From Spirulina major PCC 6313 (GTDB lineage Bacteria; Cyanobacteriota; Cyanobacteriia; Cyanobacteriales; Spirulinaceae): 64,000 nt of DNA. The translations under genes were made by a program, and so were the position numbers. The stretch is taken from the NCBI RefSeq assembly GCF_001890765.1, contig NZ_KV878783.1, forward strand, positions 3,872,771-3,936,770, read 5' to 3'. How positions within the stretch are numbered: the first letter of the stretch is position 1; each line of letters opens with the position of its first letter. Below the pieces are notes generated by a model that worked only from the letters and a program-made list of their open reading frames with translations, was not told the origin of the DNA and did not search any database. Below, piece after piece: positions 57,528 through 64,000 of this stretch.

Positions 57528-58490
57528 ATGGTTAATCAGGTTAATCAACTGTGGCGAGGTGCGATCGCCAGCCTTGCGATCGGGGCAAGCATCAGCAGCA
57601 TCGCCCCCGTTGCCCATGCCGCCAACCCCTCCCACCTTCAGCAACTGCTCGAAACCAACGAATGCCGCAACTGTGACCTCAGCGAGGCTGACCTCAGCGG
57701 CGTTGACCTCCAACGCGCCAAACTCAGCGGCTCCAACCTGATCGAAGCCAACCTCAGCGGGGCAGATCTGCGCTATGCCGACCTCACCGGGGCTAACCTT
57801 ACCCTGGCCAGCCTTGACAATGCTGATCTTGAATTTGCCGTTCTCGACCGCGCCACCCTCTACCGCGCCAGCCTCGACGCGGCCGACTTGGGCGATGCCA
57901 GCCTCGTCCGTACCACCCTCACCCATGCCAGTTTGATCAATGCCAATCTCCAAGGCAGCACCCTGACCACCGCCGACCTTAGCGAGGCCAATCTTGAGGC
58001 CGCCAACCTCAGCCGCGCCACCTTGATCGAAAGCAACCTACGCCAAAGCAACCTCAGCAATGCGGATCTCTCCCGCAGCCGCCTCAACCAAGCCAACCTT
58101 AGCCTTGCCAACCTCAGCAATGCAGATCTGTCCCGCGCCACCCTGAGTTATGCTGACCTGACCCGTGCGGTGTTGCTCAATGCTGACCTCAGCAATGCCA
58201 ATTTAGGCGGGGCGATTCTGCGGGATGCCCAGATGAGCAGCGCCATTTTGCAACAGGCCAACCTGCGCCAGGCGAATCTCCGCAATGTTAATCTGCGCTA
58301 TGGGGATTTGCGACGGGCGGATCTGAGCTATGGGGATTTGCGAAATGCTAACCTATTTGAAGCGGATCTCGAAAATGCCGACCTGACGGCGGTGGAACTG
58401 GGAACCGTGATCCTGTGTCGAGCGACGTTACCCGATGCGTCTTTGTCTGATCAAGGCTGTCGGCGACGGGGCGAACTGGAAAATCAGTAG
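57528..58490 (+). CDS. Secreted pentapeptide-repeat protein
   Basis: A 320-residue protein with a signal peptide (basic N-terminus, hydrophobic LAIGASISSIAPVAHA, cleavage expected near residue 32) followed by a short region with two cysteines (ECRNCDLSEADLSG). About 50 A(D/N)Lxx pentapeptides follow to ~305, which should fold as a right-handed quadrilateral beta-helix. The C-terminal part has single cysteines (ILCRATL, DQGCRRRGE). Periplasmic or lumenal pentapeptide proteins are common in cyanobacteria; their role is unknown. It is followed by the DUF1232 gene 18 bp later. Confidence 0.92.
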   Translation: MVNQVNQLWRGAIASLAIGASISSIAPVAHAANPSHLQQLLETNECRNCDLSEADLSGVDLQRAKLSGSNLIEANLSGADLRYADLTGANLTLASLDNADLEFAVLDRATLYRASLDAADLGDASLVRTTLTHASLINANLQGSTLTTADLSEANLEAANLSRATLIESNLRQSNLSNADLSRSRLNQANLSLANLSNADLSRATLSYADLTRAVLLNADLSNANLGGAILRDAQMSSAILQQANLRQANLRNVNLRYGDLRRADLSYGDLRNANLFEADLENADLTAVELGTVILCRATLPDASLSDQGCRRRGELENQ

Positions 58491-60946: not shown

Positions 60947-61414
60947 ATGGCGGATTGGCTCGTGAAATCAGAACCCACGGTGTACAGTATTGATGACTTA
61001 GCCCGCGATCGCATTGAGCTTTGGGACGGCGTGCGTAACTATCAAGCGCGGAACTATTTGCAGCAAATGCAGGTGGGCGATCGCGTCTTCGTTTACCATT
61101 CCAACGCCAAACCCCCCGGCCTCGCGGGTCTGGCCGAAGTGGTGGAAACCAACGTGGTCGATCCCACCCAGTTTGACCCCACCAGCCCCGATTACGACCC
61201 TAAAGCCACCCCCGACAAACCCCGTTGGTATACCGTCAAACTGGGATATGTGGCGACGTTTGCGAATCTCGTTCCCCTTGACATCTTAAAAGCTACATTT
61301 ACCCCGGATGAATTCGTCTTGGTGCGGCGGGGAAATCGCCTGTCGGTGTTGCCGATTGAGGAGGCGATCGCCTCCCGTCTCCTCGCCTTAACAACCCTAC
61401 GCAAGGAAACTTAA
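60947..61414 (+). CDS. EVE domain protein
   Basis: A 155-residue single EVE (PUA/YTH-like) domain. It starts MADWLVKSEPTVYSIDDLAR. The aromatic cage region is seen in LWDGVRNYQARNYLQQMQVG and VFVYHSNAKPPGLAGLAEVV, then KPRWYTVKLGY. EVE domains bind modified bases in DNA or RNA, and in some bacteria sit in defence systems. This one is the common stand-alone type, so a housekeeping role is likely. It lies 68 bp before the unknown gene cluster. Confidence 0.9.
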   Translation: MADWLVKSEPTVYSIDDLARDRIELWDGVRNYQARNYLQQMQVGDRVFVYHSNAKPPGLAGLAEVVETNVVDPTQFDPTSPDYDPKATPDKPRWYTVKLGYVATFANLVPLDILKATFTPDEFVLVRRGNRLSVLPIEEAIASRLLALTTLRKET

Positions 61415-61482: not shown

Positions 61483-61872
61483 ATGGCAGCCAGTGATGAA
61501 TTTCGGCAGTATCTTAAAGAGGGAAAAGTCGTCGATGCGCTGACCCTTGCCCTCGGTGAAGCCATTGAATTAGAAATTACCACCTGGGTATCCACCGATG
61601 ACAGTGCCGTGCTGGGGGAACCCTCTCCCGGTGCGAGAATGCGGACGCGGATGAACTTGGTGGATGGGGATATCAATAACGAAGTGGGCAGCCAATTTAT
61701 CGGCAGCGGCCCCTACACGGAACTGCGCGACTTTCACCTCCAGCAAGTTCAAGAAGGGCGCGACATTATCAAGCAAAACCTGGAAAGTTTGCAGCAAATG
61801 TTTGTCCTCTTGGCGCGTACCGTTGATCGGTTGCCCAAGAACACCCGCAATCCATCCCTACCGCCTCAGTAA
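61483..61872 (+). CDS. Unknown protein, first of two tandem paralogues
   Basis: A 129-residue soluble protein (ATG 61483, MAASDEFRQYL; TTG at 61468 is less likely). Not recognised as a named family. It is clearly related to the first ~120 residues of the next gene: shared EAIELEITTWV-type (A.EL.ITT.V), MRTRMNLVDGDINNEVG (TR..LV.GDI.N.VG) and YTELRDFHLQQVQEGRDII (ELR.FHL.QV..G..I). Predicted mostly alpha-helical, no membrane segment or signal peptide. The next gene starts 45 bp later. Function not known. Confidence 0.85.
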   Translation: MAASDEFRQYLKEGKVVDALTLALGEAIELEITTWVSTDDSAVLGEPSPGARMRTRMNLVDGDINNEVGSQFIGSGPYTELRDFHLQQVQEGRDIIKQNLESLQQMFVLLARTVDRLPKNTRNPSLPPQ

Positions 61873-61917
61873 CCATGCTGGTGAGGCATGATCGACAGTT
61901 CAAGCAGAGGACGGAAC

Positions 61918-63375
61918 ATGGTCGAATCAGAACAGCAAGATCGGGAAACCTTTCAGCAGGTGCTCAAAGCTGGGCGACTCCAAGAGGCGTTTTTGATCGC
62001 CATGGGCCAAGCGGTGGAGTTGAACATCACCACGGAAGTAATTCCGGCGATCGCTAGTGCTGAGGCGTTGGTGCATGGGTCGGCTCCGGGGTTGTCGGGC
62101 GATCGCCTCCATACCCGGATTGATCTGGTGCAGGGGGATATTGAAAATCAGGTGGGCGATCGCTTCCTCACTGACCAGGACTATCACGAACTGCGACAAT
62201 TTCACCTCGACCAAGTCGCCACCGGCAGCCGTCTCATTCAAAATAACGTGGAAAACTTGAACCGTCTTTTCACCGTCCTCGGCAACATTTTCAACCCCCC
62301 ACCCCCCGATCCGGCTCCCACCCTCACCCCCCTCGATTCCCCCGACCTCGACCCCTTCACCCATCCCGACCCTGACCCCTACGGTGATGATCCCCTCGCG
62401 GCTCCCCTCGATGACAACGACCTCACCGCCGACCTCTGGGCCGATCATCCCGATCCCCAGTGGGATGATCCACCCATCCCCCCCCTCGCTGATCCACCAC
62501 TGCCGGACTTGGGGGGCGATCGCGACCCCTTTAGCACCGCCGATGACCTTTGGAATGCCCCATCCTTAAGCTTTCCCACTGACATCACCGCTGCCGCTCC
62601 CCTAAACCTTGCCAGCGAACCCGCCTTGATCACGCCTCGCTCTGCACCAGAACCGCCGCCCCTCGACCCCTTCGCCCCGGATCTGCCCAGCCAAACCGAT
62701 CCCGAAGCCCTCGTTTTCCCGGATCTTGACGCTATTTTTAGTGAAACTCCGGTGGCTCCCCTCGAAGTCATCGCCGATGACCCCGACACCGATGCCTTTT
62801 TAACTGAATTTGCCAACGAGGGCGAACAGTTGCGGCCGTTCCCCTCCGATTCCGCTCCAGAGGTTACCCCCTTAGCGCCGCCACCGGCTGACCCTGAATC
62901 CCTGCGGATTGAAGATTGGGATGCGTCCTATCTGTATCTGGATGAAGCCGTGTTGCCCCTGACGGATGTTCCCCAGGATGCGATCGCGCCCCATCCCCCC
63001 ACCCCATCTCCGGCTGCGGTCAGGTTTACCGATGGGTTGAATCCCGACGATGACGAAGAGGATTGGGGCGAATTTGTGGAGTTTGTCGAAGATACCGGTG
63101 CAGAACCGGAATTGCGGAATCCCACCCTCGATCCATTTCCGAACGCGACGGATTATACTTCGGTGGTCGAAGAAGATTGGGAAGATTATCGGACTGAGGC
63201 GGTGTCTCCGCTCCCGCCGGCTGATGGGGCGAGGGATGATCCCGCTCCGGTAGAACCGTGGGGGGACAATGCCGATGATCCAGAGTTTTCAGCAACGGAA
63301 CAGGTCTGGGCTGTTGATGATGATCAGGGTGCAGGGCTAGAAACCTGGCAACCGGATGATGAGCCTGAACCTTAA
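61918..63375 (+). CDS. Unknown protein, second paralogue with a long acidic proline-rich tail
   Basis: 486 residues from ATG 61918 (MVESEQQDRETF), with AGAGG upstream; ATG at 61888 is an alternative. Residues ~5-120 repeat the fold of the preceding protein (QAVELNITTEV, LHTRIDLVQGDIENQVGD, YHELRQFHLDQVATGSRLI). The remaining ~360 residues are low-complexity, rich in D, P, E and A with many DP and PL steps, and are probably disordered and strongly acidic. No membrane segment is present. The third gene starts 16 bp downstream. It is probably a scaffold or interaction tail attached to the shared domain. Confidence 0.85.
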   Translation: MVESEQQDRETFQQVLKAGRLQEAFLIAMGQAVELNITTEVIPAIASAEALVHGSAPGLSGDRLHTRIDLVQGDIENQVGDRFLTDQDYHELRQFHLDQVATGSRLIQNNVENLNRLFTVLGNIFNPPPPDPAPTLTPLDSPDLDPFTHPDPDPYGDDPLAAPLDDNDLTADLWADHPDPQWDDPPIPPLADPPLPDLGGDRDPFSTADDLWNAPSLSFPTDITAAAPLNLASEPALITPRSAPEPPPLDPFAPDLPSQTDPEALVFPDLDAIFSETPVAPLEVIADDPDTDAFLTEFANEGEQLRPFPSDSAPEVTPLAPPPADPESLRIEDWDASYLYLDEAVLPLTDVPQDAIAPHPPTPSPAAVRFTDGLNPDDDEEDWGEFVEFVEDTGAEPELRNPTLDPFPNATDYTSVVEEDWEDYRTEAVSPLPPADGARDDPAPVEPWGDNADDPEFSATEQVWAVDDDQGAGLETWQPDDEPEP

Positions 63376-63391
63376 CGTTAAGGAGAAAAAA

Positions 63392-64000
63392 ATGACGAAT
63401 CCGAATGGTGCTCCTCTAGACCGACGGCGATCGCGACGGGCCAACCTGACCACGCCTCCCCTTACCCCAACGCCCACTGTGACTGCAAAACAACCCGCCG
63501 ATCAAGGTCAGAACATTCTCAAGGACTTTGCGCGATCGCTCAGTGAAGTTCTCATTGATATCACGGCCTTAGAAGTGAATACGATGGTGGTGGAGCGGAT
63601 CACCGGGGATAAGTTCATACCCTGGGAAATCTATCGCGATCTCTACCGCATTGATGAAAGTTGGCTCTATCGAGACGAACTGCACGAGAGCCTCCGGGGC
63701 CGTTATGTGGAATTGCGGCGCAGCCTGGAAATGGAATATGTCCTGCTGATGTGCGATCCGGAATCGGAAATGTTTGACCCCTCCACCCAGGAACAAACCG
63801 CAGTCCAGCAGGAACGGTTACGGATTTTGAGTGACCCCAATGCCCCCATTGATGCGCTCCATTCCCAACTGCCCAACCCCTTAAAACCCCACGATCCTAA
63901 CGAGATGCACCGGGTTCAATCCCTGCTCAATAATCCGAAATTTTCGCGATCGCTCCGCAAAATGAGCGAACTCAAAGCCGGTCTCGACAACCGCAACCGC
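63392..64000 (+). CDS. Unknown protein, third gene of the cluster (runs off the right edge)
   Basis: An open frame of 203 codons to the end of the window, starting at ATG 63392 with AAGGAG eight bases upstream. It begins MTNPNGAPLDRRRSRRANLT, a basic, Pro/Thr-rich head. From about residue 47 it is helical and charged (ILKDFARSLSEVLIDITALE, LRGRYVELRRSLEMEYVLLM). No known domain is recognised. The 16-bp gap to the previous gene indicates an operon. The C-terminus lies outside the window. Confidence 0.85.
   Translation, partial: MTNPNGAPLDRRRSRRANLTTPPLTPTPTVTAKQPADQGQNILKDFARSLSEVLIDITALEVNTMVVERITGDKFIPWEIYRDLYRIDESWLYRDELHESLRGRYVELRRSLEMEYVLLMCDPESEMFDPSTQEQTAVQQERLRILSDPNAPIDALHSQLPNPLKPHDPNEMHRVQSLLNNPKFSRSLRKMSELKAGLDNRNR

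Follow-up and report, generated by a model that had tools for sequence, protein, structure and literature searches.

A conserved four-gene unit of cyanobacteria that appears to hold four divergent copies of one unannotated domain, one of them with a motif-bearing acidic tail

Proteins of the YbaB/EbfC family have the secondary-structure order alpha-beta-beta-beta-alpha, and YbaB forms dimers. Eps15 and other eukaryotic endocytic adaptors carry disordered tails with DPF/DPW motifs, and to our knowledge arrays of short linear motifs are rarely described in bacteria, well known as they are in eukaryotes. Two papers describe YbaB as a nucleoid protein (PMC8581549, PMC9610160). EbsA is described as a cyanobacterial-specific pilus/secretion component that is annotated as hypothetical, acts in a multi-protein complex and has widespread homologues with 44-52% identity (PMC8092324). 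In the cyanobacterial locus described here, a single domain seems to have multiplied so as to fill four positional roles, and one of the copies bears an array of short linear motifs.

Locus layout, conserved gene order and neighbours

The source locus comprises four co-directional genes, A, B, C and D, which form an operon-like set on the plus strand with gaps of 45 bp between A and B and 16 bp between B and C (Table 1). The original prediction had described a three-gene operon with tandem paralogues, an acidic tail and a basic head; all of these elements are present in the sequence and the gene order is conserved, the number of genes being four, as D follows C. The full length of C and gene D had been overlooked because the window (the whole stretch of 64,000 nucleotides analysed) stops at position 64000, inside C. 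The third gene indeed starts 16 bp after B, at 63392, with a basic head (RRRSRR near the start, pI 11.8 for the first 38 residues). A promoter and terminator scan was uninformative (0 promoter-like sites with 2.4 expected, and five terminator-like sites, all on the minus strand, with 5.7 expected). Further upstream, the window holds genes for a pentapeptide-repeat protein in which a signal peptide is apparent by eye (57528-58490) and for a DUF1232 protein (PF06803, 58494-59234), the N-terminal half of which is by eye long and charged. Downstream, a minus-strand gene (65060-67330, L002:9060-11330) codes for a ParA-type ATPase with a weakly HSDR_N_2-like N-terminus (E 3e-4, under Pfam's cut-off) and adjoins a gene for a protein with a C-terminal helix-hairpin-helix (PF12836) and an N-terminus that is ParB-like by eye only; this pair converges on the operon.

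Table 1. Positions of the features of the locus.
Feature	Position	Strand	Description
EVE-domain gene	60947-61414		68 bp upstream of A; PF01878, E 1.1e-47
Gene A	61483-61872	+	ORF of 129 aa; stand-alone alpha-beta-beta-beta-alpha domain, without tail
Gene B, whole	61918-63375	+	ATG at 61918; in-frame alternative start at 61888
Gene B, head	61918-62304	+	second domain copy, ~120 aa; by identity to A and A/B profile
Gene B, acidic tail	62305-63375	+	356 residues plus stop; start set by profile envelope; pI 4.05
DPF motif 1, B tail	62350-62358	+	
DPF motif 2, B tail	62524-62532	+	
DPF motif 3, B tail	62665-62673	+	
EDW motif 1, B tail	62911-62919	+	
EDW motif 2, B tail	63058-63066	+	EEDWGEFV
DPF motif 4, B tail	63130-63138	+	
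EDW motif 3, B tail	63172-63180	+	EEDWEDY
Gene C	63392-64297	+	301 aa; ATG at 63392; in-window portion 63392-64000; strands 1 and 2 separated by a helical insert of ~160 residues
Gene D	64297-65007	+	236 aa; ATGA overlap with C stop; beyond the window (L002:8297-9007)

To assess conservation, 119 loci were examined, of which 106 were distinct after duplicate removal. The order A/B-(B)-C-D, which the original prediction had expected to hold in other genomes, was found in 85 of the 106 (41 with two A/B genes and 44 with one), and no mixed-strand arrangement was seen among the 106. The other loci, some of them cut by contig ends, showed C-D (7), AB-AB (5), AB-AB-C (4), AB-C (2), C (2) or AB (1); for five of the seven C-D loci, which lack an adjoining A/B, the contig extends beyond 1.2 kb to either side. 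Since the loci had been fetched for holding C or A/B, gene presence is not independent evidence, whereas order and co-orientation are. In a draw of 291 genomes from the phylum, 26 contained C, and every one of these also gave D and A/B matches; seven further genomes had A/B without C or D (33 with A/B in all). The count for D falls to 24 when the hits of two genomes (G025 and G051), which sit on other contigs and are broken by 5 and 7 stops, are left out. Within the order, C was present in 33 of 60 genomes drawn, the source genome included. A scan of bacterial and archaeal genomes gave 107 loci, and all 80 listed had cyanobacterial titles, including Nostoc, Moorena, Symploca and Spirulina.

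The neighbours of the operon vary by lineage, with an EVE-domain gene in the source genome, maf and psbP in many others, and ackA and ftsH in Nostocales. Of the 82 distinct loci whose upstream gene could be read, 28 have a co-directional maf-like gene, called by sequence motif and checked with Pfam in one locus, immediately before the operon (e.g. L076, L112, L140, L143 and L149), with psbP preceding it in some. A psbP cluster flanks 28 of the 108 loci counted with duplicates. This context, the cyanobacterial titles of the listed loci and the hydrophobic segments usual in D (see below) speak for an accessory or assembly factor, which would act as a transient chaperone for an envelope or thylakoid machine encoded elsewhere (secretion, pilus or photosystem). 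We consider such a role unlikely, given that neighbours differ between lineages and that the patchy presence within the order does not suggest a core photosynthetic role.

Searches of Pfam, NCBIfam, PADLOC, PHROGs and PDB sequences gave no credible match for the four proteins, so that the set is still unassigned, as it had been called from the outset. The best stray matches were Htr2 for A (E 0.0043), RPN13_C for the in-window part of C (E 0.033) and phrog_21680, of unknown function, over 22 residues of C (E 0.003); when relatives were scanned singly, the matches listed included DUF6611 (E 0.0015) for one of 54 D proteins, Peptidase_S49 (best E 0.0029) for 10 of 83 A/B proteins and HAUS2 (E 0.0027) for one of 56 C proteins, and the stray Pfam matches differed from family to family. 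A defence function found no support, with 0 PADLOC families for A, B, C and D at E values up to 1, and tblastn at E 1e-3 returned nothing for C against plasmids and nothing for A against phages. A literature search, outside which lay supplements and most subscription journals, found none of the Anabaena PCC 7120 tags alr2558-alr2560 in text; these tags were inferred from the gene order next to all2563 (talB) and all2564 (pyk1), with all2561 presumably being ackA. Over alr2556-alr2561 there was a match for alr2556 only, and queries on psbP/maf/operon and on DPF/disordered in cyanobacteria returned no matching paper.

An apparently shared domain and its weak resemblance to YbaB/EbfC

A and the head of B were 42% identical over 111 residues (E 8e-25 in a single comparison), as tandem paralogues would be. 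An AlphaFold (AF2) model of A, built from 83 sequences (pLDDT 79.9, pTM 0.64), contained H16-26, E29-35, E52-58, E64-68 and H79-116, and a model of a C orthologue (L060), built from 56 sequences (pLDDT 87.8, pTM 0.72), contained H17-35, E38-45, the helical insert, E207-215, E220-224 and H234-279. The order of elements is thus identical in the two models, alpha-beta-beta-beta-alpha, and the C insert falls between strands 1 and 2. In profile comparisons with hhalign, A/B matched C with Prob 75.6 (P 2.4e-5, 93 columns) once the insert was removed, compared with Prob 17 for uncut C, against which smaller alignments of A and of A/B had given 8.2 and 3.7. When the same length was cut out at other places, 13 positions gave Prob 26-40 and a fourteenth, a single residue off the true cut, 71; eight reversed controls did not exceed 4.8. 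Models and profiles together argue strongly that A/B and C have one domain in common.

C matched D with Prob 83.5 uncut and 88.1 with the insert removed; the match between A/B and D was weak (Prob 17.8), and an earlier, smaller A-D alignment had given Prob 69. All families have a near-invariant glycine in a DGD turn (124/130 A/B, 95/96 C and 88/89 D) and a near-invariant histidine in the helix that follows (129/130 A/B, 96/96 C and 87/89 D), identical sequences having been collapsed and close relatives kept for these counts. The two residues are 23 residues apart in A/B and in C and 24 in D, and a further copy of the DGDI motif is present in the C-terminal half of C. Because of the C-D profile match, the smaller A-D alignment and the Gly/His motif, D also appears to share the domain, by profile and motif only. 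The operon would thus appear to hold four divergent copies of an alpha-beta-beta-beta-alpha domain with a long C-terminal helix.

The near-invariant histidine and glycine, at nearly equal spacing in A/B, C and D, could be read as a catalytic or ligand site in all subunits of an enzyme or ligand sensor, and the eight leading VIA matches for A include RNase PH/exosome-subunit chains (6d6q_D, Z 6.2; 9g8n_G, Z 5.0; 1r6l, Z 4.6). We think this very improbable: no other polar position listed reaches 90% in all three families, a lone histidine at the start of a long helix may just as well be structural, and the enzyme matches are all weak (Z < 8), with none recurring at the top for both A and C.

Foldseek found no significant match for the A and C models. 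The top row for A was the YbaB/EbfC structure 1pug (E 0.44), and no YbaB was present among the 50 matches listed for C. In VIA searches, where all matches had Z < 8 and so fell short of the tool's own mark for a trustworthy match, the first three rows for C were the YbaB-family structures 3f42, 1ybx and 1pug (Z 6.7, 5.8 and 5.6; rmsd 5.1-6.6 A; 85-93 residues aligned), unrelated chains tying with YbaB at Z 5.6 and below. For A, an exosome subunit came first (Z 6.2), and four of the six leading rows were YbaB (Z 4.6-5.1, rmsd 6.1-7.7 A). When A/B, C (with and without insert) and D were aligned by hhalign with 16 cyanobacterial YbaB sequences, recovered from 29 fetched loci, Prob was at most 2.8, on which ground we rejected membership of YbaB/EbfC (PF02575). 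This family was not among the best 25 of the 32-43 Pfam families listed for the relatives (sets A4-A6), and the source genome encodes a canonical YbaB at another site. With weak structural scores, no sequence relation and the genome's own YbaB, we take YbaB/EbfC as a lead to a possible resemblance of fold, not as a family to which the set belongs.

This possible resemblance raises the prospect of a nucleic-acid-binding complex, in which a distant YbaB/EbfC-like fold would form a DNA- or RNA-binding assembly and the acidic tail would mimic nucleic acid or auto-inhibit. For it speak the leading or near-leading YbaB rows for A and C, the common alpha-beta-beta-beta-alpha order, the basic D (pI 10.1) and the ability of acidic tails to act as DNA mimics. 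Such a complex nevertheless seems improbable to us, considering the low Z and high rmsd values, the unrelated chains that tie for C, the exosome subunit that leads for A, the lack of any sequence relation to YbaB and the canonical YbaB elsewhere in the genome; moreover, A (pI 4.7) and the B head (pI 4.6) are acidic, and what the tails hold in excess is specific Trp/Phe motifs as well as charge.

The acidic tail of B and its apparent separability from C and D

The tail of the second gene was described correctly from the start: it has 356 residues, is acidic, proline-rich and apparently disordered, and contains four DPF and three EDW motifs. The A/B protein set was reduced from 171 to 166 after C proteins and truncated domains had been dropped, and 144 of these were distinct. 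Tails of at least 60 aa were found in 63 of the 144, ranging from 71 to 1806 aa; the longest belongs to a B protein of 1931 aa (L056:1832-7627). Among the 53 tails left after removal of near-duplicates, D+E averaged 28% and K+R 3.5%, and all 53 were net negative. EDW occurred 92 times compared with 9.6 expected from shuffled tails (in 36 of the 53), DWG 48 times compared with 1.8 (in 28) and DPF 65 times compared with 8.4 (in 26); the word counts are unbiased and the shuffling controls composition, not descent, so that common ancestry may account for part of the EDW/DPF excess.

A tail of at least 60 aa was confined to the second gene in 49 of 50 tandem pairs (the exception, L057, has 53). On an unrooted tree of the 144 heads, built on few columns and with unsure deep forks, 'first' genes required 2 label changes compared with 41.6 in shuffles (0 of 500 as low), 'second' genes 8 and 'single' genes 10. 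These counts suggest that the A type is old and close to a single group and that the tail-bearing genes are broader, a set from which the A type may have arisen.

The tail was also found apart from C and D, and these apart from the tail. In one family (f14), four loci of six such genomes were read (L140-L143); each pairs A with a B whose tail is acidic, C and D are not alongside, and these genomes gave no C or D match. The gene immediately upstream is maf in three of the loci, preceded by psbP in two, and L141 has a different neighbour. The Nostocales loci read had a single tail-less A/B protein followed by C and D, and three distinct Nostoc loci (L130, L133 and L134) had C-D only. D was longer in tail-less loci (305-343 aa, one of 381; Nostocales L104-L139 and L145 of another family) than in tail-bearing loci (206-290 aa), from which three loci with partial domain envelopes (L101, L120 and L124) were left out. 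In a Spirulina MAG (L061:1865-3909, A 87% identical), B is missing and C follows A after 6 bp, which could be a real loss or an artefact of MAG assembly. The tail thus looks like an optional module, with domain assembly and recruiting arm separable, and recruitment by B would not be essential to the family, as the tail is absent in the Nostocales loci.

This separate occurrence argues against a tail that exists to bind the basic head of C, as the original prediction had supposed of an acidic-basic pair. The head of C is weakly positive and variable: among the 89 heads long enough to score, the median net charge was +2, with 58 above zero, 34 at +3 or more and 31 at or below zero, and nine of 98 C proteins had almost no head. 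The tail occurs without C/D in the f14 loci, and C/D occur beside tail-less A/B in Nostoc. The pairing was therefore rejected. At least one hydrophobic 19-mer was found in 86 of 92 D proteins, 8 of 142 A/B proteins and 0 of 100 C proteins. The D of the source genome has a weakly hydrophobic segment with no 19-mer above the threshold (best 1.30), which makes membrane tethering least certain in this genome.

A putative recruiting assembly compared with known systems

From the observed gene order, domain, insert, tail and motifs we infer that the four genes probably build one assembly that recruits other proteins. The specific form that we tentatively favour, at somewhat less than even chances, is one hetero-oligomeric scaffold of four domain copies, usually tethered to the membrane by D, with the B arm recruiting clients. 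By analogy with YbaB dimers, A, B and C would associate through the shared domain; D would usually tether the assembly through the hydrophobic segments after its domain; the helical insert of C may supply a further binding surface; and the disordered acidic tail of B would serve as a flexible recruitment arm, the acidic-Trp motifs around EDW(G/D/E) and the DPF(A) motifs of which would bind one or more putative clients with high avidity. The scaffold is proposed because of the order conserved in 85 of 106 loci, the co-occurrence of C and D, the shared domain, the tail motifs, the near-restriction of the tail to the second gene in tandem pairs and the hydrophobic 19-mers of D. Against it count the weak A/B-D profile match, the models, which are of single chains only, and the C-D loci without A/B (7/106). 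A further step, a membrane-tethered four-subunit adaptor platform whose disordered EDW/DPF arm recruits clients multivalently, perhaps as a condensate, would be a bacterial parallel to eukaryotic adaptor tails and is a good deal more doubtful.

We describe here a domain family that lacks annotation and a conserved unit of four genes that, in the 80 named loci listed, is confined to cyanobacteria; the EDW/DPF motifs offer concrete bait peptides for finding the putative client. No known family or system that was tested fits the set, and the function proposed for it is a putative one. It resembles YbaB/EbfC in the order of helix, three strands and long helix and in the leading or near-leading, weak structural match obtained for A and C, which were modelled separately; it differs in its tandem divergent paralogues, the helical insert, the hydrophobic segments of one member and the acidic, motif-bearing tail. 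With EbsA, compared by description only, it shares the annotation as hypothetical, the restriction to cyanobacteria and a multi-protein complex, which in the present case is a proposed one; EbsA homologues are described as widespread, whereas the present set has a patchy distribution and is built as a unit of four genes. The B tail, long, acidic and apparently disordered with repeated DPF and acidic-Trp motifs, resembles the tails of endocytic adaptors by analogy, not homology, as the B protein is bacterial and its folded domain is different.
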